64,000 bases of DNA, from NCBI GenBank assembly GCA_018806915.1, contig JAGKQI010000066.1, positions 248,001-312,000 on the forward strand, in the 5' to 3' direction. This document shows, one piece after another, positions 13,037 through 62,770 of the stretch; positions within the stretch are counted from its first letter, which is position 1; every line of letters starts with the position of its first letter. A program made the translations under genes and the position numbers. A model generated the notes under the pieces. It saw only the letters and a list, made by a program, of their open reading frames with translations. It had not been told where the DNA came from and did no database searches. This DNA is from Phytophthora colocasiae (taxonomy: Eukaryota; Oomycota; Peronosporomycetes; Peronosporales; Peronosporaceae).

Positions 13037-13132
13037 TTTTTGTCAAAGAGTGATTGTCACTGATTCCATCAGATATGTCGTTCTGAGTCTAATCCTGATA
13101 AAAACAATCATTCTTCATCTCTCTTGGAAGAC
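13037..13132. promoter_or_regulatory. Bidirectional promoter gap with oomycete-type initiator
   Basis: Only 96 bases separate the two divergent starts. TCATTCTTCA at 13108-13117 matches the pyrimidine-rich TCATT initiator known from oomycete promoters and lies 16 bases upstream of the plus-strand ATG at 13133. No clear counterpart was seen for the minus-strand gene. Confidence 0.5.
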
Positions 13133-16100
13133 ATGGGCGGCTTCGGCTTCGGACTGTTGACGGACGTGCAGATGCTGGGCTTCTACCAGGCCCAGCACGC
13201 ACACGACCGCCAGCCATTCTTAGCATATGTACTGCAGGTGGGCACGACCAGCTCGGACTTCCTCGTGTACCGTCGGTACTCTCAGATCGCAGCGTTAGCG
13301 GCTAAATTGCATTTCCATCCGCCAGTGGGGCTTCCGCCTAAGTACGCACTGCAGGTCTTCCCGTTGACGAGTGAACAGCTGCAGCAGCGCTTCGACGGTC
13401 TTCAGAGCTTCCTACGGGAGGTTGTAGGTCATTTGTCGGTGCAACACGCGGCTGGAATGCATCACGACACGAGCTCAAGTGCTGGCTTGGATATGCAGAT
13501 CTTTTGTGACTTTGTATCGCATCATCGCAATCGACCACCGAAACCGGTGAAAGGAGAGTTGCCGGACTGGGCGAAACCTCCCGCGGTGACGACGACGTGG
13601 GCAGAGGCAGAAAGTGTAACAGATAGTGAAGATGTCGGCCTGTTGGAGAGCGATGGAGACTCCGATCAAGAGCTATTGGGTCCGGAAGACGTTGAACCAA
13701 CGGGAGATGTGTCTGCGCAGTTCAGGAACGAGGTGTTGCAGGCTGAGGGTAATCTCAGTGCATTGTGGCACTGTGTGAGAGCGTATATGCAGGCCACGAC
13801 GGCCTGGTGGGGAGCAACTGCGGCGGTGCTGGACGAATACAAGCGAGTGGCGGATATGCCGCTCTTTGCTGATGCTCAATTGGATATAGAAGACGAGGAA
13901 CAGAGTAAGAGGGAAGAAGACAGTAAAACACATGCAGCGAGACTCGTGAAGGCATTAACGCAAGTGCTGGAGTCTCTCCAACCTGAGTTCGAGAAGAAGT
14001 GTGAGGACGCGGTGCTGAGTCCATTGGAAACGCTGAGTCACGACATCTTGCCGGAGATCAAGCACACGTACTGGACTCGACACAACAGTGCGAGCAACGG
14101 CGATGCCAATGCGCGGAGACTGCAGCAGGAACGGGAGAGTTTACACGGAAAGTTACGTGAAGACGTGCAGAGCAGTATGGCAGCATTGGTGGCACTCCAG
14201 AGCGAGATGTTGGCCGCTATGCATGATCGCCTGCATGGGTTCAAGCGCGTACGGAGAATGCCGAGGCAACGCAGTCAGTCCCAGCCGACGCTCAACCTAA
14301 AAAGCAGTCGTCGTGGACGCAAAAACTCTCGGGGTGTCAGTATATCATTGACGGGCACTGCTAAACCGTCTTCAACACAAGTAGCTGACCACGATAATGA
14401 AATGCAGTCGTCGAATGACCCTACAACAACACCGGTCGTTGAACAAAACTATGAAGAAAACAACGAAAGTGTAGAGGAGATGGACGGCAACGAAAGTGAC
14501 GACGAAGGAGAAGGCAGCGCTGAAGATGAAGCACAAGTGGTGAAAGAGCTCTTGGATGAAGAAGACGTGCCGACTCAGCCCATTGAAGAGCCAAGTTACA
14601 GTATGTGGGTGTGGGGTCGTCCGCCTAGTCTGGAGGGGGGAACCCCACTAGTACTTCGTCCCAAACAGGTTTCATTGCTTAACGGGCAGCCCATTGTTCA
14701 AGTGGCATGTGGTGGTGAGCACCTATTGTATCTGACGTCTACCGGAGACGTTTACAGCTACGGTGATAACGAAGACAAGAAGACCGCAGCCGTCACCGTT
14801 GCAACTAACAACTCTAGCTCGGTCGATGATTCGACGCGAACGAGCTCAAACTCATCGTTTCTGACCCCGCATCTAGTCGAAGAACTCGCGCTGGAGAAAG
14901 CGCTTCACCGCACAGCCATCGCTATGATCGCTTGTGGAGCACAGCATTCATTGGCCATTACCGATACCGGGGAGCTTTATACGTGGGGAAGTGGCGAAGA
15001 TGGCCGTCTTGGTCATGGAGATATGCGTGATCGTGCTGTTCCACGTAAGGTCATGGGTTTACTGCGTGAGAGTGTAGTCAGTGCAAGCTGCGGTGGAGCT
15101 CATACGGCAGTGCTGAGCGCTAAAGGACGGTGTTCCACGTTCGGTCGTGGCCGCAACGGGCGTTTGGGTCTGGGGATAACAAGTGGCGCGATACACCACA
15201 TCAAGTTGTATCTTTCCCGCAGGGGACACGAATCTCGCAGATCGTGTGTGGCTGGAACTTCACGGCTGCACTGGATCGACAGGGTAGTATTTTCACGTGG
15301 GGGAAAACAGGAGAAGGTCAATGTGGCTTGGGATATGTGGATAAAGACCAAGTGGTGCCTCGTTGCGTCGAGAAGCTTCGGGGCGTAGCAACTGGGTCTC
15401 CAGTAGTGGAGGTTGCGTGTGGATATACCCATACTGTTGTGCTAACAGCGAGTGGGGAGCTGTATTCATGGGGACTAGGAGAGTACGGCCAACTTGGTAC
15501 GGGGGATGTCTATCAACCACTCCCTCGCACGCGTCCAATTTCCTCCAGACGCTATGTGCGCTCCTGACCAGATCGTGCGTGTGTATTGTGGTGCTTTTCA
15601 CTCCATCGCTACAACAGAGAAGCACATCATGTTCGCATGGGGATTGAACTCTTACGGTGCTTGTGGGCTTGGTCATACTGCGAACAAGGACAAACCCGAG
15701 CGTATCGACTGTTTTTCATCGCAAACAGAGCTGGTCGTTGCTTGTGGACACAAGTATACCATCGCTCTTGAAGTGCATCCATCACTATATAGACAGCCCT
15801 CATCCCAGACAATGATGGAGACTGGAGCGGCAGTGAATGGACTGGAGATGCCTCGGACTAGCAGACAGCTTTCAGAGGGCAGTGAAGGGAGCGAAGATGG
15901 TCCGTATATCGGCCAAGGCTCCCCTGGACGACCAAGAACCCCGCCAACCGCTACTCGTCGCCATCGACGAGGTTCCCCTCCAACGTTGGCTATGGATGTA
16001 AGCGAATTGCCTCGTGAAGCCATTCACGAGAAGGAGGAGGAACTGCGGCGTGCAAAGAAGCTCTGGCGAACACGGATCCTGCGTGACTGGGAAGAGAATA

Positions 16101-17140
16101 AGGACACTCCATTGGCACATTCACTATGGAGACAAGGCATTCCGCCATCGATTCGAGCTCGTGTGTGGCCCATGGCTATCGGGAATAAATTGAAGATAAC
16201 CCCTGAAATGTTCAAGATCTATCGTCGACGAGCTGCTGCCTATAAGAAGGATCGAGCGAAAGAGAAAGACGGTGGGGTTGACGGCGGACGTGAGCACACT
16301 CTAGCTCTAATTGACACGGACCTGCCGCGTACATTCCCGTCGCTGAAGCTGTTCGATTCAAGTGGTCCGTACTACGCATTCTTACTGGAAGTGCTCGAGA
16401 CGTATGCGTGCTATCGTCCAGATCTGGGATACATCCAGGGGATGTCGTACTTAGCCGCCATGTTGTGTCTTCACATGCCTCAAGACCGCTACTTGGCTTT
16501 CCAGTGTCTATCCAACCTCATGGTGAACGAGCACCTCTTCACATTCTACTTGCTGGATGCTGACCTGGCCAACGTGTACTACACGCTCTTCGACACGTTC
16601 CTGAACTCGAGATTGCCGCACCTGCACGCTCATTTACGGGAGATTGGAGTGTTTTCGTGCTCCATGTACCTTATGAACTGGCTGCAGACGCTGTTCCTGC
16701 AGGTTCTACCTCTCGAATCTGCGGCGCGCGTGTTCGACAATTTTTTGCTGGACGGAACGGTGTTTCTCTTCCGCACGGCAATGGCCATTCACGAGCTATT
16801 GGCGCCACAGTTGATGGAGGCGGAGATGGACGTGGCACTCCCGCTGCTGCAGCGCAATGTCATTCATCAGGATGTATGGAACGCATTCGTATCGGAGCAG
16901 GCTCTGTTCGACACCGTGTCGACTATCGCCGTTCCTAGCCACATTTACTCGGCACTGGACCGCGTGGTGAACGACGTTTTCTTCTACGAGAAGCGTGGCG
17001 ATCCGGACAGTATTGGTGGGAAGAATATGATGGCGTTTGCCAGTGGTGGTCAGAGTGTTGGCATCGGCCACGTCAAACATGAGCGGAGACGCATGTACGC
17101 TATTAGCGACGCGTTAAATGGGGTTCTAGGTGGATTTTAA
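13133..17140 (+). CDS. PX-RCC1-TBC multidomain Rab GTPase-activating protein
   Basis: About 1,335 residues. The first ATG in the long frame is at 13133. Residues about 10-130 form a PX domain (phosphoinositide-binding; VYRRYSQ and PPK motifs). Residues about 200-370 are helical and BAR-like, followed by a basic/acidic linker. Residues about 490-885 carry RCC1-type blades (CGAQHSLAITDTGELYTWG style). Residues about 1000-1220 form a TBC domain with both catalytic fingers visible: arginine in DTDLPRTFPS and glutamine in YIQGMSYL. Known TBC proteins speed GTP hydrolysis on Rabs; PX suggests endosomal membrane recruitment. Two frame breaks (about 15175, consistent with one missing G in GGGG; and about 15540) fall inside RCC1 repeats that continue in the next frame, so the gene is probably intact in the organism. 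Confidence 0.85.
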
Positions 17141-28064: not shown

Positions 28065-31000
28065 TTACGAAATGCACTTGAGTAGGTACCGCAGTCTCAT
28101 GAACCGCATAAAGGATTGCGATGGTGTTGTAGGTAGGACAACACCGCGAAGGATGCACTCGAAAAACATGAGTACAGCGACACTACAGCTTGAAGCGTCA
28201 GGTTGACGGCACTTGGTCTCCAACTTTGACATGTAGAATCTCATACAGCTCTCCATAAATGTCTTTCAGTGTCGTTTTACATGCTGCGTAGTACTTGTCC
28301 TTCTTGTCTTGTAATGGATCGAAAATAGTGATCCCTCTGCTATCCGAACGCAAGTCAATTACAGCGCCGCACCAGTGGCTATCTTCCAAGTGTAGTGGTA
28401 CTAAAATCAGGTGATGCCCTTCTTGGAACGGATTGCCGACATTAACAGCGGTTACGCGAGCAGCACGGTCGCTTAGACGATGAAATAAGGGGTTCACAAT
28501 GCCAACGCCGTCATGCTCCCGCTGAAATAGAGTTATCCCATGGCTCATGGCACCGTCGTTCACCCATTTGTTTTCGCAAAACGAAAGCAGTTCACGATAG
28601 GGAAGAACTCCGAAAGGTGTTGATCGAGATCGACGGAGAGGAATATGCTTGATCATCGCTTCCCGATCGGCTGGAATGTCGCTGACACCGTCTTGAAGTT
28701 CCATTGGGATTCCAATCCGCTTGATGTTTGTATTTTGTACCCAATCGATAGCCTGTTTTGTATCGGCCACGTACTCCATAGCGGTGTGCCACCTATCCAT
28801 GGCATGGATGTCTTTGTCTGAATAAATCCCAAATCGAGAAAATTCAACGCCGACTACATCTCCAGAAACTTCATCACCGAGAGACTTTATGAAGACCCTA
28901 ATTGCAGACAGCGCCTTCTTCGCAAAAACTTTGGGGAAAACGTAACGGATGTCTGCTTCACAGTCGCCTTCGTTGAATTTTCCAGCAATTGCCTTTTTGG
29001 TTTTGGGCAATGATCGCTCGGTGATGACAGCCAGCACGCCTTTCGCTTCTTCGTAGATGTCCATCTCGCCAAATTTGTCCATAACACTCCCCAAACTTTG
29101 AACAGGCGCCAACTTGCCTTGAACAAGCTTATTTGCTGTCTTTCGTCCTTCGCCGATACGCTGTTTCTTTGTAGTTTGTCACTTTCGGCCGACCTCGAGA
29201 CGATACACTCTTTGTTATTCGAAATGGCTCCGACGTCTCTGATGAACCACTATTTTCATGCCGGCGTTTTGCTGGTTTATCTGACTTTTCATCAAGGTCC
29301 TTCGCATCAGGACATGGTTGAAGTACTGCAGACACAACACTCGGTACTTGAGGTACATCACTTGCGCCTCCAGGTACAACACTCGGTATTCCATGTACGC
29401 CACTTGTACTTGGAGGTACATCACTTGTGACCGGAAGTACATCACTGGTAGCTGGAGGTACACTACTACTGCCTTGAGATTCCTCGAAGCTCGCAGGTGA
29501 TGAATACTGGGAACCGGAACCTTTTTGCGTCGGCAATAGCTCTTCTTCAGCGCTATCCGTTCCCTCTCTTACATCATCATTCGTTTCAGCTGTTTGATCG
29601 GTCATAAAGTCAAGCGAAGGCACTTGAGACAACGGGTCAATCCAGTGACCCTCACGACCGACGAATGGGGCAATTCCATCTTTGACGATATCCTCAAATT
29701 TGTCCAAGGCTTCTATCATCTGTCGAAAAACGAACGTGCTGTTCCTGCTCATGATGTCAGCTATGGTTTTCCCACGCTGTAGCGCATACTTGTACTTCGT
29801 CGAGCCATTCAAAACTTGATGTTGTCTCGAGGTCATTGCAGATTCACGTACTTGAAACTTTCTACACGCAACACTGTTCTCAGGAACGTCTTCTTCTTCA
29901 ACAGGCTGGTTTAAGCTGTATGACAACTTCCATCTTGGAGCAATGTGGTGAACTGGGATATCGGTTTTGTTATTCGTAAGACGCCAATACATCACGTGTC
30001 GACAGGGCAGCAACATCGTCCTCATAAAAACGCAGGAACAGCGATATTTCTAGTTCACACGACATAAGTTAGAGTAGTATAGATTCGATAGAATAATGAA
30101 CGTACCGAAGTATTGACAAGGTACGCTTCCAAAGCGTCTTTCCCAATCGTAAGTTCATACATTTTAGGATGAAGCTCCCGCACGTCGTAGCGGGTCTTGC
30201 GATCCATTGCAATCCAATACTGCTTTTCGACGAGCCGGTAAGCATGTGGACTCACTTCGCATGCAAGTTTTTGCAGCTCGTTATCAGCTTCCGTGTAACG
30301 CATCTGACCAACTTCCGTAATCTTCTTCGCGTACTCCATTTCAGCGACGGCTTGCAAGAACATTAGCGTGTCTACACACTCATCAAGCGCCATATCCGGC
30401 TTCAAAATATCCTTAATATGCCCCCATGATGTCTCAAGCCTATTACACAGTCACAGTAAATCCATCAGGTTACAACGGAAAATGGAGTACTTCCTATCGT
30501 CTTACCTGTTGTTCGTGTGATTTCCAAGGTGAGGGACGTCTGAACGTGCGTATAACGCCCACCGTTCTTTGATTGTGTGCCAGTTTCGCATAAAATACTT
30601 CAGAAATGGCTGCTTGGCTTCAGGTATTTTGTCACTCTCCGAGAGCTGAACGCCGTCCAGCAGGAAATACATGTACTTTAAGTACTTCGTGTATTCTTTG
30701 ATTGATGTAGCCTGTCTCATTAGATCGACAGCATCCTCGACTTGATCCTTGTCGAAGCTCGATTGGCCACCGTATTCGCTCTTTGCCATCTCTGTTCGGA
30801 TATATTTCTTGAGGTGAAAATGACAAAGTATCACTTTGACGTCACCAAACTCCTTCTCCAGAATACTGAGTTCGCCCATATCTTTGTCAATCACGATCAC
30901 TCGAACATCTTTTGCCCACGACGGGTTGTTAGACTTGAACGCCTGAAGAGCATCAGTGAGGCACTCTTCGCTTTCATTTTCCATCAGACTGTGATGAACG

Positions 31001-51259: not shown

Positions 51260-53265
51260 TTAACCTCTACGATCTACGCCTTCTCCTTGGCGAGGTAATG
51301 AGTCGTGCAGCTTCTTCTGCTTGTCTTGCTCCTTCTTGAGTTTCTTACGCTGGTTCTTCGTCAGCTCTTTACCAGCAGCATTGTGGGTCGGGAGACCTTC
51401 AGCGTCGAACTGCGAGTAGAGCTCTGGCTGCTTCTTGAACATTTCGACCGGCGACAGCTTCATCTTCTCCATCTTGAGCGCCAGCTGCTGCATCTGCGCA
51501 TCCTTGCGACTCGCGTTTGCGCCTGAAGTTGCAGCGCCACTGGCTGTTTCACCCCCACTCTCACGCAGAGCCACGATCTGGTTCAGAACCTTCTTGTCCT
51601 TGGTCGAGTCCTGGTCCGGCACGAAGTAGCCGATGCGCTCGAACTGCACGATCTCATTCAAGTTGTTCGCGTACGACTCGGGGTCCACGCGGGCTGTGGC
51701 GTACACGCGCTCCGAATTCTTCGAGTCCACGAATGACTCCCAGTCCTTGACGTCGCTCGGCAGCTCCGGTACCGTGAATAGGTGAGAGTACACACGCACT
51801 TCCACCTTGGGACTGTTAGCTGGCACCCACGAAAGAACACCCTTGGGTTTGGCTGCGTTGGTCCAATCCATCTGGCCCACCACCTTCGTCACGCGGCCAC
51901 TAGCGTCCGTCTCCAGCTTTGTGCATGTGAACGGGAAAGCGTATTTCAGACGCACCTGCTTGTTAGGTGCCACACCGTAGAAGTCCTTGAGTCTTCAGCA
52001 CGTACGTCACTGCGATCGAGGAAGATTTTCTGTGAGCTGAACCTGGTGGTAGACGTCGCGATCCGCGTCCTGCGGGTAGTCCGGTACCTTCAACGAAAGA
52101 GCGTCCTTGTCAGGTACATTGCTGAAGTTCTCGATGACGAGTTCCACGGGGTCAAGCACGGCCATAACACGCTTCGAGGACTCGCCCAGAACGCTACGAG
52201 CCACAGAGTGTAGCCGTTCGATTTGGATCGTCGACTGCACGCGGGTAACGCCGATCTCCTTGCAGAACTGCTTGATGATCTCCGGGTGAAACCACGCCGA
52301 CGAAGACCGTTGAGCGTGCCCATACGAGGGTCGTCCCAGCCACGCACCGTCTTGGACGTCACGAGCTTGAGCAGTTTGCGTTTGCTGAGCACCGTGTAGG
52401 TCATGAACAGACGAGCGAACTCGTACACATTGGGCTTGAACAGATCCAGTTCATTGAGCAGCCAGTAGTAGGACTCGCGACGCGTCTCGAACTCGAGCGT
52501 GCAGATGGAGTAGTCAATGTGCTCCAACGCATCCACGATGCAGTGCGTGTAGTCGTATGTCGGATAGATGCACCACTTGTCTCCAATGTGCGGGTGCGGC
52601 ACGAACTTGATGCGGTAGGCCACGTGGTCCCACATATTCGGGTTGGGACTGCCGAGATCCATTTTCATGCGGAGACAGGCCTCTCCTTCACCATACAGAC
52701 CAAGACGCATCTTCTCAAACTCTGCCAAGTTCTCAGCAACTGAACGGGAGCGGAAGGGAGACTTGCCAGCTTCTGAAACGTCCTTCTCGTCCTTGGTTCC
52801 AGGTGTAGCGTGGAACTGCTGCAGAACAACACGAGAAGCTTCGATCTCGGCCTTACTCTGGTGGCACACATAAGCTTTGCCCTTGCGGATGAGCTTCAGA
52901 GCCAATTCATACAGTTCCTGGAAGTATTGACTGCTGTACGTGACTTTAGTAGGGGTGTAACCCAACCAGTGCACGTTATTGGCGATGGCGTCGATGTACT
53001 CGTTACTCTCAGCCTCCGGATTCGTGTCGTCATAGCGGAAATACGTCTCGCGCTTGTCCATGGGGACGTTCAGCTTCTCGAAGGCCTCGAAGAAGTTCAT
53101 GTTCATGGATTTAGCGTGACCCACGTGCAGATATCCATTAGGTTCGGGTGGGAAACGCGTGCGCACTTTGCCCTGCGTGACGCGCTGGTGCTCAGCAAGT
53201 TGCTCCTGCGTGTTCTTGGCCAGCGCCATGTCGCGCGCCTCCAGGCCGGTGGTGGGTGTCGCCAT
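51260..53265 (-). CDS. Glutaminyl-tRNA synthetase
   Basis: ATG at 53265 (MATPTTGLEARDMALAKNTQ). The frame is open further upstream to 53538, so an extended form cannot be excluded. Class I signatures are present: PPEPNGYLHVGHAKS (HIGH) and VLSKRKLLKLV (KMSKS-type), plus TFRYDDTNPE-like YFRYDDTNPEAE, IYPTYDYTHCIVDALE and GWDDPRMGT, all typical of eukaryotic GlnRS. The anticodon-binding beta barrels follow (RVMAVLDPVELVI; QFERIGYFVPDQ). It ends with a Lys-rich tail. About 660 residues. Three frame breaks occur (about 52300, consistent with one lost C; about 52030; about 51995). The enzyme is essential, so these breaks are the best evidence for base-level errors in this window. It charges tRNA-Gln in the cytosol. 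Confidence 0.9.
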
Positions 53266-53591
53266 GGAGAGGAAGGGAGAGCGGTGGGAAGTTGCTGGAG
53301 CTTTGACGGCGAATGATTTAATGGCTCGGATATTGCGAGGCTCTGACACAACCAACCATACAAAAAACAAGTCAAAGGATGCTGACCGTAGGAAAATGCT
53401 CGGACGAAGAAACGAGCAACTGACGCCTCCGACGTCGACAGCAAGGATAGAGTGGACTATTAACTGGTTCTTGAGCTTAACGACAGGAGGACGGAGCTCC
53501 TGACTCAAATGGACGTCTACAGTAGACGACAGTCTCATCGACTACTTGTTTGTGCTGATTCTTCTCGTCCATTCCCTTTCCTGAGCTAAAG

Positions 53592-54804: not shown

Positions 54805-54809
54805 GGTTT

Positions 54810-55270
54810 TGTAATGGGTCTACCTAGACCTATTAGGTGGCGTACACGTGCGCTTACGTGTATGAGGAAGCGTGCAATTAGAATAGACTTAATTTAAGTA
54901 TACTTATTTAAATACGTATAATTAAATCAAATATAACTAAATTAAACTGCAAAAATACCGTAAAATGAGAACTGTTATTGAATTTGGCATAAGCCAATTA
55001 TGGACCTCCTAAAACTGTTTGTTATCTATTTCTAAAGGGTCTGCCAACGTGTGGTTGGCAGAAACTCTGCTCAGTGATTGGTAGAAATCCGTTACTTTCT
55101 ACCAATAATATGCACAAATGCACACGAACCATCCAATAATGTGGTTCGCCCATGTATCCTTTGGTGTGTACAGCACACCAAGGTCTGAGGCCCATTTCCA
55201 ACCTCTAACAGTTATCCTAACTGTTAGAGTTACAAGTGGTACAACCACTTGTACGTGTAACCCCGTTACA
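54810..55270 (-). repeat. 3' LTR (left)
   Basis: 461 bp, matching 62306-62765 with one visible difference (a run of five A near 54955 versus four in the other copy). It contains stems at 55040-55062, 55077-55106, 55125-55148, 55161-55181, 55203-55229, 55231-55253 and 55256-55270. Confidence 0.93.
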
Positions 55271-55284
55271 CCATCACCCCGTTA
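55271..55284 (-). other. Polypurine tract candidate
   Basis: Directly inside the 3' LTR, the minus strand reads a G-rich ACGGGGTGATGG, in the position where plus-strand synthesis is primed in LTR elements. The purine run is interrupted, so the assignment is positional. Confidence 0.45.
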
Positions 55285-55455
55285 AGATTCGACGTATCGG
55301 TCTCGATACGTCAATCAACAGAACTTGACAAGACCGTCAAGTTCCCGAGAGAAATCCGAGTTCATTTCGCAATGGACTGATCTCGACGACCTCGTGATGA
55401 GGCCTCGGACGCTTCAAGCTCGAAGCGTCCGCGCAGTGATGATGAAGCGTCCCCC

Positions 55456-56577
55456 ATGTCGAGGGCGCTCACTGCACCGCGCACTGATCCGCCAGTGCGC
55501 ACGCCATGGATGCCTACTGAGGCGGAGATCCATGACCGGTTCGGTGCTAGCTCACCACCGAACCCGATACTGTTGTACTCATGCAACAGTATCAACGACG
55601 ACGACGTCGCCGCTAAGGTTGTCTTTGAGTCCGAGACTCAAAGACGCGACTACTATATCGGGCTCTTCCACGAGCTCCGATACTATGCAGCGAAGACTTC
55701 GCGCATGAGCAAAGTGCCAGAGTGGCAGGCACTTTGTCAGTCGTGGAACGCCTTTGTTGATATCTTCAACAAAGACCCGAAGGCATATCGCGAGCGCGTT
55801 GCTGCGGCTCGCGATCGCTACTACACTTACACTACACGTGGTAAGTGTGAACGCCTCCATGATCAGTCCATGGAAGCGGGGATCCCATGTGCCGTTCCCT
55901 TTGGCACACCCTGTCCGTGTTGCCCACCCTTGGCAACACGCCTTACCGAACGTGATCTCCTGGGGTACACGGTCGTCCGTGTACCCGATCACATCAAGGA
56001 ACTCCGTGGTCGTATTGTGCCACGCGAAGCTCCGAGTGCTGTGGCTGACCGCATGCGGCACTCCTCGTGCAGAGTTTAACCCTGCAAGTTATGATGGGCT
56101 TCATGCGCCCTCACACCATGTCCGGAACGTCCTCCATCCGGACGTTCCGCGGCTCCCATGTATCTCGATGAGGAGGAAATCCTCTCCAACGAATACGAAA
56201 ACGAACCCCTTGAGAGTTCGTTCTCTTATGAGCCACAATCCGCTCAACAATCCAGCGGATCGCTCCACGCGCGTCGCGGCAACGGCGGCGGAGGGGTGGA
56301 ACACTCCCTCCGCATGGTCAACGCTATGACGCCATGACGATCGTGCCCTGCACGATCGAGTTGCTGCGCTGGAGCAGACACAGAGCGCTGAGATAGCTGC
56401 TCTGAAGCAGGAGGTTCGTGTCCTCCGTGCTGAGGTCTGCGAGGCAGCTCAGACTGCCTCGAACCTCTCGTCCGGTCTTGGGACGAGAGTGAACCAGTTG
56501 ATCGACCGTGTCGACGGTCTTCGAGAAGGCCTTCCAGGCCTCTCGCACTCCCTCAGTCGGACTACCAACCCTAGGTA
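55456..56577 (+). CDS. Antisense accessory ORF of the Gypsy element, coiled-coil C-terminus
   Basis: On the strand opposite to gag-pol, an ATG at 55456 opens a 207-residue frame (to 56079) with protein-like composition: WMPTEAEIHDRF, YYIGLFHELRYYA, a Cys cluster FGTPCPCCPP. Protein-like sequence continues in shifted frames (56075-56155; 56158-56335, MYLDEEEILSNEYENEP) and ends in a clear heptad coiled coil (56336-56577: VAALEQTQSAEIAALKQEV, LIDRVDGLREGL) with stop TAG. If the shifts are sequence errors, the product is about 370 residues. It overlaps the integrase tail by about 250 bases. Antisense ORFs between pol and the 3' LTR are known in some plant Gypsy elements. I do not recognise the family. 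Confidence 0.5.
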
Positions 56578-57933
56578 GTCCGTGCTGCACGTACGGCTTC
56601 AACCGCCCGACGTAGAAGGTCGGGTGGAGTCTCATGCTGGACGGTATGTCCAGCCGGTACGCGTTGCCGTGCCGTTCAAGTACTTTGAACGGCCCAATGA
56701 ATCTTGGAGCAAGCTTGCTTGCTCCAAAGTCAGACACTGCATGTCTAGGTAGGTTTTGTGTAGCTAACAAAACTAATGAACCCTTTTCGAATTCATTTGT
56801 GTTGCCTCTACCAACAGTATCAGCGTTCAGCTTCTGTCGATCGACAGAAGCTGCGATAGCATCCTGGACAAACCGTATGACGGCTTGTCTTCGCTGGACA
56901 AAGTCTAGCGCACCCGAGCTGAATCCTTTCAGCTTGTCGCCCTTGTCAGCAGCAGGCCCTGCCTGCTCGCTATCATTTCTCATGTCTGTGCCCGGCACAG
57001 ACATCGCGCGCTCGTTCCTGCTCGAACGAGACGTCGCACGCGTCACCGCAGCTGATAGTGTGCTGCTATCAGTTGCATTCTGCGGTTGTTCGGACGCAAC
57101 CGTAGATCCTCCCCCACTTAAGGAGGAAGCTACCCCGCCGAGCATGCTCGGCAATCGTGGATGCCTCATGGCGTTCACGAAGAACGGTGTATGCCCTGTG
57201 GAGGCATGCACCGAGTTGTTGATGGCAAACTCTGCCATCGGCAAGCACTCGCTCCAATGCGGGAACGAGTGAGCGTAGCTCTTCAACGTGTCACCCAATA
57301 CACGGTTGACACGTTCGGTCTGTCCGTCCGTCTGCGGATGATCCGCAGTCGACATTGATAACTGTGAACCAAGAAGTGTAAACACTTCTTGCCAGAACCG
57401 CGCTGTGAAGCGTGGATCACGGTCCGACACAATGTCGAGCGGCATGCCATGGTGTTTGAACACCATGTCAACAAACAGTCGCGCAGTCTGCGCGGCTGTA
57501 ACAGTAGCCGGGACGGCAGCAAGATGAACCATCTTGCTGAATCGGTCCACAAAAACAACGATGCCCGTCCTCCGCTTGCTGTCAGGCGGAAGACCGAAGA
57601 CGAAGTCCATGGACATGGACTGCCAACACTCCGACGGAGTCGGTAGTGATTGAAGAGGAGCCTGCGAGAACTGCGCAGGCTTCACGCGTTGACAAACCTC
57701 GCAAGCACGTACGTACTTGCGCACCCACTTGTACTGGTGGTGCCAGTAGAAGTCACGCGTGAGAAGAGTGTATGTCTTCTCACGACCCGGATGCCCTGCC
57801 GTGGGGCATCGTGATACTCGAACATGATCCTCAACCGGAGGTCATGATCATTCGGAACGACAATGCGATCCGCATTGTCGTCTACTACACTAATACAACA
57901 GTAGGCCTTCGTGTACACGATAGCGGTGTACAC
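56324..57933 (-). CDS. Integrase domain of Gypsy pol
   Basis: The main open frame 57724-56324 begins KYVRACEVCQRVKPAQ (second half of the HHCC zinc site; the His pair lies upstream in the frame 57933-57682). The catalytic D,D-35-E triad follows: Asp in SMDFVFGLPPDS, Asp in IVSDRDPRF, Glu in QTDGQTERVNR. The C-terminal part includes FIGPFKVLERHGNAYRLDIP and FYVGRLKPYV, the usual GPY/F-type end. No chromodomain was seen. A long linker rich in Ser/Thr (residues about 200-280) is unusual. It overlaps the antisense ORF at its 3' end. Confidence 0.88.
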
Positions 57934-58706
57934 GAGCTCGAAGATGAGGGGTTAGCTTCCGACGTGCCACGTCGGAAGGTGCTGCGAGGAACTCCAGCAG
58001 CCCCTTCGCGTCTGCATCCCTTGCATACGCGTTCTTCACGTCGTCAATCAACGTTGACGACGGCACACTTGTCCTCACGACGCCAACAGCGTTGGCGTCG
58101 ACCGTCTCCGCATAGTCAGGTCGACGCGATAACGCGTTGGCCACTACATGATCTTCCGGGTTTGTACTCCACCCGGAAGTTGTACTCCGCGAAGAAGGAC
58201 AACCATCTCGCCATACGTTGCGAGATGTGCGGCGACTTAATCGCCGTACGCAATGATGCGTGGTCTGTATAGACCACGAACGGTCTACTCCCAAGTAGAT
58301 ACACTCGGAACTTTGCGAGTGCATACTTCATGGCAAGGAGCTCCTTGTCATGTACGGGATAGTTACGCTCAGCTGGCTTCAGCTGACGCGATTGATAGTA
58401 GACTACACGATCACGCCCTTCGTGATCGTGTTGCATCAATGCACATCCGATTGCAAAGTCGGATGCATCGCACACTACGTGGAATGGACGATCTTGGTCC
58501 GCCACGGCCAAGATCGGCGCTTCAGTCAAGCCCTGCTTGACTGCACCGAATGCATCCTCGCACTCGGTCGTCCAAATCCACTCAGCTTCTTTCTTAGAAG
58601 CTGTGACAACAGGCGAATCTTGCCCGCATAGTTGTCCACGTACTTGCACAAGTACGTGGCAAATGAGAACTGCCTCAGTTCCTTCACATTGGATGGCGTG
58701 GGCCAT
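57890..58706 (-). CDS. RNase H domain of Gypsy pol
   Basis: The frame 58706-58116 has the Ty3-type RNase H: FHVVCDASDFAIGCALMQ (catalytic Asp), YPVHDKELLAMKYALAKFR (Glu) and VVYTDHASLR (Asp). After KPGR the reading shifts to 58324-57890, which continues ANALSRRPDYAE (the ADALSR-type motif that ends RNase H). It is part of the same polyprotein as RT and integrase. Confidence 0.85.
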
Positions 58707-59941
58707 TCATTGATCACTCTGACCTTCTCTGGGTCAGGGCGCACGCCGTCTTTCCCACGAGACACCCCAGCACGGGTATCTCGCTCGCCCCGAAGATACA
58801 CTTCTTCAGGTTCGCATAGAGCTTATGTTTCCTCATAAGCTCTGGCAGCTTCCGGAGATGCACCTTGTGCATCTCAATGTCCATCTTCCGTTCACAGCCC
58901 GGCTGTGGACGAACACGTCGTCGCAGTAGCTCGGTGCGAAGTCGCGCACAGAGAGCAATAGATGTGTCACGCATCTATTGAACGTCGCAGGGGCGTTTTT
59001 AAGCCCCTGTGGCATGACGAGCCACTCCCAAAGCATACCGCTTGGAGTGCTTACCGCAGTAAGAGGGGTGTCCCTCTCACGCATGAGGATCTGATAGAAT
59101 CCATCACGCAGATCTAGAGCACTGAAGATAGTGCTCAAGGCCATCGAATCGATGATAACATCTTGTCGCGGTATTGGCGTCTGCGCCGGTATCGTCGCAT
59201 CGTTCAGCTTGTTATACGCATGAACGATGCGCCAGCCGCCCTGTGATTTCTTAACACAGAACGTTGGAGCACTGTGCGGGTACTTTGACTCCCGCACTTG
59301 ACCTGCAAGACGACGACTTTCAAAGAAGTCGTCGATCGCTTGCACTTGTTCACGCGGCAGTGGCCACTGCCGTGTAACACAGTACTTCGTGCCCGGCACG
59401 AGATCAATCTCGTGCTGTACGCCCTTGTCCTTCGGAAGCTCCGAAGGAATCTCGTCAGGAGTACATCCTTGTACTCCCGCAGAATCTCGTAATAGGGACT
59501 CGACTTCAACGAGTCCCAACTCTGCTCCTCGAAGCGTTGCTTCTTGGTCTTCGCACTGAGGGTGTCATCGCCCTCAGTGATGCCATCGACGACGAGCTGC
59601 TTCAGCTCCTCGGCTTCGCGATCCACTCTCTCGATATCCGAGAGAATGCAAATTTGTTCGATGCGTCCATCGTACAAGTCCCGCGCGAAGCGCTTCCAAC
59701 TCATCGTTGGAAGTGCGGTCAACGCCGACGCACACGTCGGCGGATTCTCCAACCGCATCCTCTGGTACTGTAACCCAGTACCAGTACGTGTCAAGACGTT
59801 CAACGTCTCGACACTCGGTGTCTGCACTGCAGATACACCCGTCTCAGTCCCGGACTGAGACTCGCGCAGCTCCCTGAGCTTGCGCCGCGAAGGTCTACCA
59901 TGGAGCCCGGCTCCAGGTGCTCCACGTCCAAGGCATCGCAC
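58526..59941 (-). CDS. Reverse transcriptase domain of Gypsy pol
   Basis: The N-terminal lead (59941-59519: DGRIEQICILSDIERVDREA, SPYYEILREYKDV) runs into the RT frame 59519-58833. Landmarks are PLPREQVQAIDDF, KKSQGGWRIVHAYNKLND, SALDLRDGFYQILM (first catalytic Asp), MPQGLKNAPATFNRC and SYCDDVFVHS (YxDD box with Cys as x). The thumb and connection parts follow in other frames (58974-58714, 58801-58526: PDPEKVRVINEWPTPSNVKE). Frame breaks occur near 59500, 58915, 58790 and 58690. Confidence 0.88.
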
Positions 59942-60016
59942 CTTGGACGGGACGTTATCGCAATCGTCAGCGGATTCCTTCCGCTGACTCGCACTATCAA
60001 GCCCGGCGAGTGCCGC

Positions 60017-61200
60017 TCATCGCGTGCAGCGCTGCTGCGCACGTGAGCACGCAGGTTGTTCGGGTGCTGGGCGTTTGCAACCGCCAGCACCTCCTGCCGC
60101 GCAGTCGGTTCCCTGAACCGCTGCGCCTCCATCCGCTCCCGGAGCGGAAGAAGCAACCGCATCGTCGACTCCCGGAGTCGACGTGCTCTCGCTAGCTTCC
60201 TGCGCTAGCGAGTGTTCGCTTGTACACATATCATCCGTTCCCAGAGCGGATGTACGATCGCTAGTTCCCGGAACTAGCAGCGACTGTTCGCCTTTACACG
60301 TCTCATCAGCTCCCGGAGCTGATGACCGATCGCTAGTTCCCAGAACTAGCAGCGAAGCGCCAGTGGCGTCAGCTCCCAGAGCTGACGCACGTCTTTCGGT
60401 TCCCCGAATTTTATTTTCTTCGTCAACTCCCAGAGTTGACGCGACGTCGTCGGCGCGACCCTTGGGGGCTTGAAGTACCTCCAAGGATACCGGTAATACC
60501 GGTATTTTACCTTCTCTCAGGTGAATCGCATTCACCTGACCATCACTCATGTGACAAACATCATTCAGATGTTTACGCGTCAGGTGATTCACATTCACCT
60601 GACCATCACTCATGTGACCGCGACCCTTCGGCTCAGATTTCTGAGTCGACACACATTTTCTCACAACGACTCCCGGAGTCGTTGATGGTCGCCGGCGGCG
60701 ATCGGAGGCAGCGGCGGCCGCTGCTGCCTCAACTGGGATCCATGCACCGGCCGGTGCATGTGCAGCACTGACAGGGCCATCGCTCTCTGTCGCGCATGTG
60801 TTGTTGAAGCGTACGAGCGTACGCTTCTCCCAGTTGATCACCGGGTCATGCCGTGCAAGCCACGGCATGCCTAATACCAAGTCGAACTTATCGTCTAGAT
60901 CCAAGACGATAAGATCTTCTACAAACATCCTTCGTTTGTAAGAGAAGCGCACACGGACTACGCGCTTCTCAGTCCTCACGGTGGCACCTGTTGCCAACCG
61001 CACCTCCAACACGCCGCGAGGCGTGTCAGCCTCTTCGAAGTCAAGCCTTCGAAGACTTCCCTGTCGAACAAAGTTGTTCGACGCGCCCGAAATCCACTAG
61101 GGAACGAAGAGAGGTCGCTCTCTTCGACATCACGTTCAGGATGACAAGGTTTGGCTTGTCATCTTGCAGCTTACAGCGAGAAACCTTCTCGCTGGGGGCA
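60017..61200 (-). CDS. Aspartic protease and acidic spacer of the Gypsy element
   Basis: The frame 61012-60017 has the retropepsin flap-to-end part: RTEKRVVRVRFSYKRRM, FVEDLIVLDLDDKFDLVLGM, PWLARHDPVINW. The active-site strand lies just upstream in another frame (about 61100), where the expected D-S/T-G reads VDFG, with Phe in the middle position, followed by AS after frame correction. Downstream (60600-60180) is a spacer of imperfect repeats rich in Ser/Ala/Pro/Asp (SAPGADDRSLVPRTSS) before RT. Confidence 0.7.
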
Positions 61201-61267
61201 GCAGTCCTCATCGTCGCGTGTCCAAGCTCGACACGCGAGACTGCATCACCAGTAGGACGCCCCGCGC

Positions 61268-62256
61268 CTACTGGTCGCCAGCGTTTTTTGAACGCCCGCC
61301 CGCTGTGCACTCGCGTGCATAGTGACCGATGTTACTACACTTGTAACATCGAACCTTGCCATATCTACGTTGCTGTTGACCAGCAGTCGTAGCACTCGAG
61401 AGGTCCATAGGTTCCGGACCTCCCGTCTTCACAACAGGACGCGCCGGCTTCGGCGCGCGTTTCGCATGGAGTTTAAGCTTGACGCCGGCTAAACTCCTCT
61501 TGCATTGCAAGGCTGATCGCCTCCTCGAGAGTATTCGGATACTCTCGGAAGAGATATGTTTGACGGGACCATCTCTTGGTCCTTCATGAACGTGACGACC
61601 TTGGTCGCCTCGTCGATCGGGTTGGCCACTATGTTCGATACCAAGTATCGAGCACGCTGGGCAAAGGTGTGAACATCATCCTTGCCCTGTTGCAGATCGA
61701 GAAACTCCGCTCTCGATCTGAACTCGTTCTTCGGAGGCTCAAACGCAAGCTTGAGTTCCTCCTTGAACTCCTCGTACGTGATGAAGCACGTAGGATCCGA
61801 GGGTCGGCGCCCATAGGCCTAACTCCTCGCACGTCCGCCAAGACATGACATGGCGAACGCGACCTTCGACATCGGATCGACGATACGTCGAGCCGCAACG
61901 GCTGTGTCGAGTTCGACAAGCCACCGAAGGAGGGTCTCGTCCTCCTTCCTCGTGTAGGTACTCACGTGGAGTTTCAGCGACTCCACGCGTGGCTTAGGGG
62001 AAGCCACCGAGGCAGCAACATCTCGTTGCTCCTTCACAATGTACCCCAGAGCAACACCGTGTTGCTCTGTCGGCGATAGCGTACGAAGCATCGTAGCTAC
62101 CTCTGCCTCTCCAATGACTTGTGAAAGTCTTTGGAGAGCTTCCCACTCTGGATCTGACAGGTGGGCACAGTCCGTGCGCGTCACGGACATGTGAGGGGTC
62201 CCAGCGGATCCCTCATCCATTGGGGAGTTCTCTACCCCGCGTTCGTATGACTCCAT
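61268..62256 (-). CDS. Gag with CCHC zinc knuckle
   Basis: ATG at 62256 (MESYERGVENSPMDEG). The capsid-like part, helical, spans 62256-61819 and then, after frame changes near 61815, 61600 and 61510, 61629-61510; it includes LLRWLVELDTAVAARRI. The nucleocapsid (61510-61268) has VRCYKCSNIGHYARECTAG, a C-x2-C-x4-H-x4-C knuckle, in a basic context. It packages element RNA into particles. Confidence 0.8.
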
Positions 62257-62287
62257 ACGAACGAACAGCAGTCGGTCGTGGGACGGA

Positions 62288-62303
62288 CTACAAAGTGCTA
62301 CCA
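62288..62303 (-). other. Primer-binding site
   Basis: Two bases inside the 5' LTR the minus strand reads TGGTAGCACTTTGTAG, which begins with TGG as required to pair with a tRNA 3' CCA end. The matching tRNA was not identified. Confidence 0.6.
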
Positions 62304-62305
62304 GG

Positions 62306-62765
62306 TGTAATGGGTCTACCTAGACCTATTAGGTGGCGTACACGTGCGCTTACGTGTATGAGGAAGCGTGCAATTAGAATAGACTTAATTTAAGTATACT
62401 TATTTAAATACGTATAATTAAATCAAATATAACTAAATTAAACTGCAAAATACCGTAAAATGAGAACTGTTATTGAATTTGGCATAAGCCAATTATGGAC
62501 CTCCTAAAACTGTTTGTTATCTATTTCTAAAGGGTCTGCCAACGTGTGGTTGGCAGAAACTCTGCTCAGTGATTGGTAGAAATCCGTTACTTTCTACCAA
62601 TAATATGCACAAATGCACACGAACCATCCAATAATGTGGTTCGCCCATGTATCCTTTGGTGTGTACAGCACACCAAGGTCTGAGGCCCATTTCCAACCTC
62701 TAACAGTTATCCTAACTGTTAGAGTTACAAGTGGTACAACCACTTGTACGTGTAACCCCGTTACA
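62306..62765 (-). repeat. 5' LTR (right)
   Basis: 460 bp, starting TGTAATGGG and ending CCCCGTTACA on the plus strand; near-identical to 54810-55270. It should hold the element promoter, reading leftward. It carries the same chain of stem-loops as the other LTR. Confidence 0.93.
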
Positions 62766-62770
62766 GGTTT

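Follow-up and report, generated by a model that had tools for sequence, protein, structure and literature searches.

Short near-perfect hairpins along the full length of a clade of Ty3/Gypsy retrotransposons in Phytophthora colocasiae, and their possible role in shielding both strands from silencing

The closest described counterpart of the pattern reported here is the genome-scale ordered RNA structure (GORS) of positive-strand RNA viruses, the strength of which is expressed as the minimum folding energy difference (MFED) from shuffled sequences. PMC7642675 gives mean MFED values of 7-9% for hepatitis C virus (HCV) and 15% for SARS-CoV-2, with 23.4% as the maximum for a vertebrate RNA virus, together with single stretches that exceed 50%, a local peak in one SARS-CoV-2 gene. 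Two further systems are the Sirevirus retrotransposons of maize, in whose long terminal repeats (LTRs) palindromic motifs, one of them the commonest, form clusters in the cis-region (Bousios 2016, as cited in PMC10760457), and the RNA hairpins that template switching is described as creating and maintaining (PMC8794818). Here we examine a stretch of 64,000 nucleotides from the oomycete Phytophthora colocasiae (contig JAGKQI010000066.1, positions 248,001 to 312,000), referred to as the window and numbered from its first letter, and in it a Ty3/Gypsy LTR retrotransposon on the minus strand (54810-62765) that is tiled from end to end by short inverted repeats. We found a hairpin density above codon-preserving nulls, restriction of the tiling to one clade among the elements sampled, constraint on the hairpin arms, loop lengths that follow hairpin geometry, and symmetry between the strands. 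The explanation that we favour, put forward tentatively as possible rather than probable, is a clade of Ty3/Gypsy elements with a selected genome-scale ordered structure, the hairpins of which shield nucleic acid of both polarities from silencing.

An earlier note, made from the letters alone, had listed 19 stems in the element and claimed that chance would give only a handful of such stems in 8 kb. All 19 arm pairs are perfect reverse complements at their coordinates, and the observation was confirmed in a form stronger than first stated. A scan of the whole window for perfect stems with a loop of 2-12 found 133, 99, 77 and 32 stems with arms of at least 7, 8, 9 and 10 bp in the element, against 35, 11, 2 and 0 in the other 56 kb. 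Chance does give only a few, since 60 dinucleotide shuffles of the element yielded 4.7, 1.25, 0.43 and 0.1 stems at the same arm lengths, and the rest of the window, for which 10 dinucleotide shuffles gave 33.6, 8.0, 2.2 and 0.5, lies near expectation; the note had said that the stems do not stand out in neighbouring genes. There is no hairpin of score 7 or more in either 1-kb flank, the fold z-scores of the flanks (sense/antisense) are 1.1/-1.0 and -0.9/-2.5, one of the four being slightly low, and the pattern ends at the target-site duplications, where it had been proposed to stop. Non-overlapping hairpins of score at least 7 number 159 and take up 47% of the element, the corresponding share of window positions 1-54809 being 3%, and those of score at least 6 number 191 and take up 55% of the element. 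The spacing of 25-35 bases that the note had given is too tight, the mean being 42-50 bases per non-overlapping hairpin (score at least 6 or at least 7) and the median gap between hairpins of score at least 7 being 18. Every tested part of the element is structured in both senses, with z from -7 to -21 against 30 dinucleotide shuffles, except for the AT-rich halves of the LTRs; the claim that the LTRs are tiled holds for one half of each LTR, and the AT-rich half is weakly structured (z -2.1 to -2.7).

The arms differ from unit to unit, as the note had remarked, and this rules out tandem repetition of a single unit. The longest perfect arm in the element (loops 0-40) is 13, below the length of over about 20 bp that defines a long inverted repeat, which rules out a foldback or long double-stranded RNA (dsRNA) precursor locus. 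The search of Rfam matched no known RNA family, the one match (E 0.96) lying far below the gathering score. The features to which these counts refer are the following.

54810-62765, minus strand: Ty3/Gypsy LTR retrotransposon, hairpin-tiled along its full length (stem scans, LTR and domain evidence)
54805-54809, no strand: target-site duplication GGTTT, abutting the element
62766-62770, no strand: target-site duplication GGTTT, abutting the element
62306-62765, minus strand: 5' LTR (sense orientation), with hairpins in the half 62536-62765 and a weakly structured AT-rich half, 62306-62535
54810-55270, minus strand: 3' LTR (sense orientation), with hairpins in the half 55041-55270
55203-55229, no strand: example hairpin in an LTR, arms 12, loop 3 (stem scan)
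58636-58659, no strand: example hairpin in the RNase H region, arms 11, loop 2 (stem scan)
60847-60869, no strand: hairpin, arms 9, loop 5, with 8 of 9 pairs kept in a relative (L069) and one pair changed on both sides
61248-61275, no strand: hairpin, arms 9, loop 10, with 9 of 9 pairs kept at the homologous place in L069

The genome (a 92.5-Mb assembly of 105 contigs) was searched for copies, and at least 40 other places show 96-98% identity to all or part of the integrase side of the element. Tiling is present in each of the 38 loci of the window family that were fetched (L001-L038, of which L001 and L009 are the window element itself and some pairs are the two ends of one copy), with 8.6-16.2 stems of at least 8 bp per kb, and a single aberrant copy is thereby ruled out. 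We refer to the window family as family A, to L069/L070 as family B, to L075-L078 as family C and to L071-L074 as family D. Local alignments of the open frames give about 50-60% amino-acid identity across families A-D, with about 70% between C and D, and about 32-35% (38% in one short match) between these families and the Gypsy group of L045, L056 and L067. Thirty other reverse transcriptase (RT) loci (L039-L068) hold 4 stems of at least 8 bp in total, one of them of at least 9; 24 of these loci are Gypsy-like and 6 resemble long interspersed nuclear elements (LINE-like), as labelled by match length, and the Gypsy-like ones are largely one related group, a narrow sample. A 2.5-kb Copia fragment has no clear excess, with 10 stems of at least 6 bp against 6.7 from base-pairing odds and none of at least 8. 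The 30 loci and the Copia fragment rule out a general property of the mobile elements in this genome, and among the elements sampled the hairpin tiling is confined to one Gypsy clade. The DNA of the relatives comes from this genome only, because one scan each of a viral contig collection and a genome contig collection found no relatives. As a separate observation, most of the unstructured L039-L068 loci have fewer stems of at least 7 bp than base-pairing odds would give, a possible avoidance of structure.

Codon-preserving shuffles, proposed as a check in the earlier note, leave the excess in place. Neither of the two refuting outcomes named in that note, a density no higher than in such shuffles or an equal density in the flanks, was seen. 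The open frame of L031 (3591 bases) holds 64, 54, 39 and 16 stems with arms of at least 7, 8, 9 and 10 bp, against means of 4.1, 1.5, 0.55 and 0.15 in 200 codon permutations. Stems with arms of at least 9 bp in the open frames of L012, L022, L030 and L031 amount to 70-81 times the codon-permutation mean (200 permutations; 38 against 0.54 in L022) and to 35-46 times what a dinucleotide-constrained codon swap gives on average (60 runs), and L069 has 8 such stems against 0.28 and 0.42 under the same two nulls. Because the excess is large over nulls that preserve the codons, most of the hairpin signal is carried by synonymous choice. Chance or composition as the cause is ruled out by the dinucleotide, codon-permutation and dinucleotide-constrained codon-swap shuffles taken together.

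The amino-acid sequence is itself bent towards hairpin-compatible codon runs. We counted the places where the protein permits 9-bp stems and compared each count with 12 shuffles of the protein. In the phase in which third positions pair with each other, which is the least tunable one, L022 has 44 permitted places against 9.2 +- 3.7 in shuffled protein, and in the phase that pairs second positions it has 146 against 64 +- 13; the unstructured Gypsy locus L056 has 9 against 8.8 and 63 against 59 in the same two phases. Smaller surpluses are present at their own arm lengths in family C (78 against 54 +- 12 at 7 bp) and family D (180 against 109 +- 17 at 6 bp). For the 120 relatives listed of 1372 in the protein database, many of them from Phytophthora species, the third-position phase gives 3.9 times the shuffled value for the 31 closest and about 2.3 times for the other 89; this lean is no more than suggestive, the proteins being mutually related.

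The variation among copies indicates how the arms were treated while the element was replicating. The set for the RT side comprised 21 copies, drawn from 30 loci and including the window element (L009), with nine loci of shorter or poorer match omitted (L010, L011, L014, L016, L017, L018, L023, L034 and L038), and a variant was called shared if at least 3 of the other 20 copies carried it. With L026 as the reference, shared variants fall on 11 of 1440 arm sites and on 63 of 2124 sites elsewhere (odds 0.25, Fisher 2e-6), and none of 1000 circular shifts gave an arm count as low; the counts are 9 of 1488 and 52 of 2061 with L031 as the reference, and 7 of 1427 and 54 of 2114 with L022. At third codon positions the proportion of shared variants is 1.1% for arms, 5.8% for sequence outside them and 6.4% for loops, each copy having been read in the single frame with the fewest stops, so that some positions in frameshifted copies are wrong. 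Singletons occupy 150 of 1440 arm sites and 251 of 2124 sites elsewhere with L026 (p 0.21; p 0.42 with L031 and 0.52 with L022). Since shared variants have passed through the replicating population and singletons are mostly younger than the insertion, the arms were constrained while the element replicated. In smaller sets, where shared means at least 2 copies, shared variants amount to 0.35% in arms, 1.1% outside and 2.0% in loops on the integrase/LTR side (8 copies including the window element), to 0.2%, 0.6% and 1.3% in family C (4 copies), and to 0.9%, 1.9% and 1.8% in family D (4 copies; arm/outside ratio 0.49). The earlier note had offered two explanations, and the first, selection for a structured nucleic acid, is supported by the depletion of shared variants in arms, at third positions too, with singletons not depleted in the 21-copy set; it is further backed by the bent protein and by a loop minimum of about 3.

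The second explanation was a mutational origin, taken here in the form in which the element's own reverse transcriptase would perfect and maintain the inverted repeats by template switching, with no part for selection. A process of this kind has the precedent cited above, and it would explain both the Watson-Crick perfection of the stems and their strand symmetry. Repair of one arm from the opposite one would be expected to leave shared double changes in place of about half of the variants that are lost, but a shared Watson-Crick doublet is absent among the 14 shared types (5 A.C, 5 G.T and 4 other, three of the 14 having the reference copy itself as the exception). Five Watson-Crick doublets, double changes that keep the pair, do occur in single copies. 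Cells changed on both sides of a pair are few in the 30 copies, 4 Watson-Crick and 1 other of 19734, and are not above the slid controls (0-5 and 2-17); the integrase side has 0 Watson-Crick and 1 other of 6370. The Watson-Crick share of such cells, 4 of 5 in the true register against 14 of 64 in the slid ones, is a weak sign of compensation that fits either model, and the codon phases of the L022 stems (22/19/19) are nearly even and do not on their own separate the two. Families A and B are 65% identical in nucleotides over the RT-integrase stretch, and for stems lying fully in aligned codons with a local identity of at least 0.5 (29 stems) the differences to L069 lie in both arms: over 28 stems the mean difference between arms is 1.64 against a binomial 1.83, and one arm is unchanged in 2 of the 28 against 3.2 expected. 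In amino acids the arms are no less similar to L069 (identity 0.747) than the sequence outside them (0.713). With no shared compensatory doublet, no surplus of cells changed on both sides and differences in both arms, perfecting by template switching is not supported, and we consider a mutational origin quite improbable.

Arm length is a property of the family. Profiles of exact arm lengths against codon permutation peak at 9 bp in family A (L022 has 23 against 0.4, and 11 against 0 at 10 bp), and the excess in family B lies at 8-10 bp. Family C has its largest surplus at 6 bp (40 against 9.7) with a tail up to 10, and family D at 5 bp (102 against 35 in L072) with few arms beyond 6 (2, 2 and 2 at 7, 8 and 9 bp against 3.0, 0.5 and 0.2). 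Loops are mostly 1-8 in the window family, where arms are about 9 bp, and mostly 3, 4 and 6 in family D, where they are 4-5 bp. The 5-bp stems of family D have their greatest excess at loops of 3, 4 and 6 (26, 21 and 11 against 3.0, 3.7 and 3.0) and a lesser one at loops of 1 (13 against 4.2) and 2 (8 against 3.2), lengths that can widen to 3 and 4; at loop 0 they have no excess (4 against 4.0), and 6-bp stems number 4 against 0.8. Because the excess is greatest at loops of 3, 4 and 6 and not at loop 0, the loop lengths are those of hairpins in a single strand, with a physical minimum of about 3.

The same figures bear on the idea that the repeats are palindromes of double-stranded DNA at which proteins bind or cruciforms form once the element is integrated. 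Palindromes of this type would be strand-symmetric, as the pattern is. The arms differ between units, however, and therefore offer no common site, the 5-bp stems of family D have their largest surplus at loops of 3 and 4 and none at loop 0, and singletons are not depleted in the arms of the 21-copy set. Palindromes with arms as short as 4-9 bp are not known to extrude as cruciforms, and we find this idea hardly credible.

Folding was compared between the two strands, with MFED taken in 350-base folding windows and 12 dinucleotide shuffles for each. The window element reaches 33.3% in the sense and 43.2% in the antisense direction (22 folding windows; sense range 20.9-47.2), and the sense/antisense values are 34.6/45.9 for L031, 29.5/31.8 for family C, 11.6/12.3 for family D and 6.2/4.8 for family B, the last from a 7-kb stretch not trimmed to the element. 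For the controls the values were -6.4/-1.8 and -4.3/-4.8 (two unstructured Gypsy loci) and -0.7/1.3 (6 kb taken from the window). Local-fold z-scores against 30 codon shuffles are -23/-28 for the window family, -4.8/-3.5 for the L069 family, -26/-31 for the L075 family and -10.8/-9.8 for the L071 family, with +3.0/+2.2 and +2.2/+2.4 for other Gypsy loci and +0.6/+1.5 for a LINE-like one. We note separately that the two tested unstructured Gypsy loci fold less stably than their codon shuffles (z +3.0 and +2.2).

A structure selected in sense-strand RNA only would be expected to tolerate G.U and not A.C, and this expectation was not borne out. One-mismatch stems were counted in single loci per family (L022, L031, L069, L075, L077, L072, L074 and two controls). 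The window element has 9 G.T and 15 A.C, and the G.T/A.C counts are 10/19 in L022, 7/17 in L031, 5/4 in L069, 18/12 in L075, 11/7 in L077 and 19/24 in L072, where G.T is at its expectation. A sense-strand RNA with G.U wobble was thus rejected for want of a consistent preference, the numbers being too small to speak against a modest one. The lack of a consistent lean between G.U and A.C is what a structure needed on both strands, or in DNA, predicts. The earlier note had suggested a structured sense genomic RNA; the structure itself stands, and its restriction to the sense strand fits less well, because G.U is not consistently preferred and the antisense is as structured.

This applies to packaging or compaction, in which the hairpins would be dispersed sites in sense genomic RNA, bound by Gag/nucleocapsid inside the virus-like particle or used for condensation, and arm length would have co-evolved with Gag. 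The hairpins do span nearly all that such a genomic RNA would contain, including the LTR half at the sense start (they are weak in the other half), the arms are constrained and vary in length by family, and mismatches in families B and C are more often G.U than A.C once expectation is allowed for. The window family and family D show no sense-strand preference for G.U, however, and the antisense is about as structured in every family tested; we think this explanation unlikely. If the hairpins instead protect or organise minus-strand DNA as single-stranded complementary DNA (cDNA), G.T would be no better than A.C. Strand symmetry agrees with this, and DNA of minus polarity would suit the window family's surplus of A.C over G.T as well as antisense values that run somewhat higher in families A and C. 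The mismatches of family C lean the opposite way (18 G.T and 12 A.C in L075), and we know of no oomycete factor that acts on retroelement cDNA, although none was looked for; a role in cDNA seems to us fairly improbable.

In shielding from silencing, the explanation that we favour, selection would keep short near-perfect hairpins every few tens of bases in coding and non-coding parts alike, with arms typical of the family (about 9 bp in A). The hairpins would act in single-stranded nucleic acid of both polarities, so that folded sense and antisense transcripts would fail to anneal into long dsRNA and would be poor substrates or targets for Dicer, for Argonaute-loaded small RNAs and for RNA-dependent RNA polymerase. 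A stem with no more than 13 perfect pairs is itself too short to serve as a Dicer substrate. We favour shielding because it explains the strand symmetry, the coverage of the whole element, the short arms and the stem positions that differ between families. The antisense open reading frame (ORF) at 55456-56079, which over 199 residues has no stop in six of the seven other copies compared, hints at antisense transcription. Phytophthora infestans produces Dicer-dependent 21-nt small RNAs, and in two of its abundant Gypsy-type elements both strands are matched by small RNAs (PMC3522703); GORS transcripts, for their part, escape sensing in transfected fibroblasts (PMC3950689). A further possibility is a second, sequence-independent code, in which a hairpin rhythm gauged to the family would be selected on both strands, bend codons and amino acids, and serve as anti-silencing armour. 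This we find doubtful; if it were true, the difference in gauge between the families would come from each being tuned to a different host recognition limit.

Several results weigh against shielding by selected hairpins. Known functional RNA helices use G.U freely and window-family hairpins do not, and relative to codon permutation families A and D lean to A.C while B and C lean to G.U. Of the 49 window-family stems that could be compared with L069, 4 retain 0.8 or more of their pairs there and 7 retain 0.73 or more, one of them, at 60847-60869, with a clean compensated pair. Where both sides of a pair have changed, 17 of 47 cases are Watson-Crick, the nearest slid control giving 18 of 48. In the reverse direction the window element preserves 0.8 or more of the pairs for 6 of 13 L069 stems; most family A stems thus lack a counterpart in L069 and about half of the fewer L069 stems have one, by gain in A, loss in B or both. 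Singletons in the small sets are also fewer in arms (5.7% against 8.3% on the integrase side, 1.2% against 1.9% in family C and 7.0% against about 11% in family D), and the contrast between old and young variants therefore rests on the 21-copy set. Part of the arm depletion, most in family D, may be ascertainment, because chance stems in a control Gypsy set (10 of 24 loci, matching L048 over at least 2500 bases, 14 being dropped) also gave fewer shared variants in arms, 6.2% against 9.2%, a ratio of 0.68 from about 147 arm sites. Structured RNA can, finally, also invite silencing, as described for Sirevirus palindromes (PMC10760457).

The remaining anatomy is that of a Ty3/Gypsy element, the domains following one another on the minus strand, 5' to 3' in the sense direction, as protease, RT, RNase H and integrase. 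Both LTRs start with TG and end with CA, and they differ from each other by one 1-base indel. The best protein relatives among the matches listed are from Phytophthora species.

61268-62256, minus strand: gag-like region, frame-broken in the window copy (motif read by eye)
61819-62256, minus strand: ORF in the gag-like region, with its start inside the hairpin 62240-62263
61268-61510, minus strand: ORF with a CCHC zinc knuckle in the gag-like region (motif read by eye)
60017-61012, minus strand: aspartyl protease region, RVP_2 (Pfam match)
58833-59519, minus strand: reverse transcriptase, RVT_1 (Pfam match)
58116-58706, minus strand: RNase H, RT_RNaseH and RT_RNaseH_2 (Pfam match)
56324-57724, minus strand: integrase, rve and SH3_Tf2-1 (Pfam match)
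55456-56079, plus strand: antisense ORF of 207 amino acids between the integrase and the 3' LTR, with no family in Pfam

Several hairpins in 60163-60684, near the protease, have the common centre CTCCCGGAG or CTCCCAGAG, perhaps from an internal repeat of the polyprotein. The parts on either side of about 55378/55379 have their matches about 350 bases apart in many other copies, and the window copy therefore probably has a deletion there. Elsewhere in the window, 13124-17140 on the plus strand holds host-like genes, with RCC1 repeats and a PX domain followed by RCC1 and a RabGAP-TBC domain, and 52090-53538 on the minus strand, near the element, encodes a class I aminoacyl-tRNA synthetase of the Glu/Gln kind. 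A Ulp1-type peptidase C48 domain at 28198-29112 on the minus strand is possibly part of a DNA transposon.

A literature search, with most subscription journals outside its coverage, found among the titles and abstract openings shown no report of genome-scale ordered structure in an LTR retrotransposon, and to our knowledge this is the first known case. The element bears on the question of why some RNA genomes fold end to end, and since structured and unstructured many-copy Gypsy families are present in one genome, it offers a direct test, by natural comparison too, of how folding relates to small RNAs and to an element's success. With the template-switch RNA hairpins, as described in PMC8794818, the element shares perfect short stems arising in evolution, and it differs from them in that the window family has no clear conversion signature. 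With the Sirevirus LTR palindromes of maize (Bousios 2016 via PMC10760457) it shares palindromes in an LTR retrotransposon that fold in RNA and a tie to small RNAs, which for the element is proposed; unlike them, it has arms that differ, coverage of the whole element including the coding parts, and no repeated LTR motif. The likeness to GORS, on the published accounts cited here, includes consecutive favoured stem-loops along the whole genome, paired sites that vary less, short duplexes, stem positions that may partly turn over between relatives, and a proposed shielding from recognition. In the element the fold energy is above that of shuffles throughout (MFED 33.3% in the sense direction, with a minimum of 20.9% among 22 folding windows) and the paired sites are less variable (shared variants occupy 11 of the 1440 arm sites and 63 of the 2124 others). 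Unlike viral GORS, its stems are near-pure Watson-Crick and strand-symmetric, and arm length differs between families. Its MFED of 33% and 43% lies above the viral means of PMC7642675, a comparison that is approximate since the shuffling methods differ, and the element-wide value of the window family exceeds those of the other loci compared as well as the virus genome means given in that source. Because its carrier is a chromosomal LTR retrotransposon and not a positive-strand RNA virus, we describe the element as working like GORS, outside the viral set.

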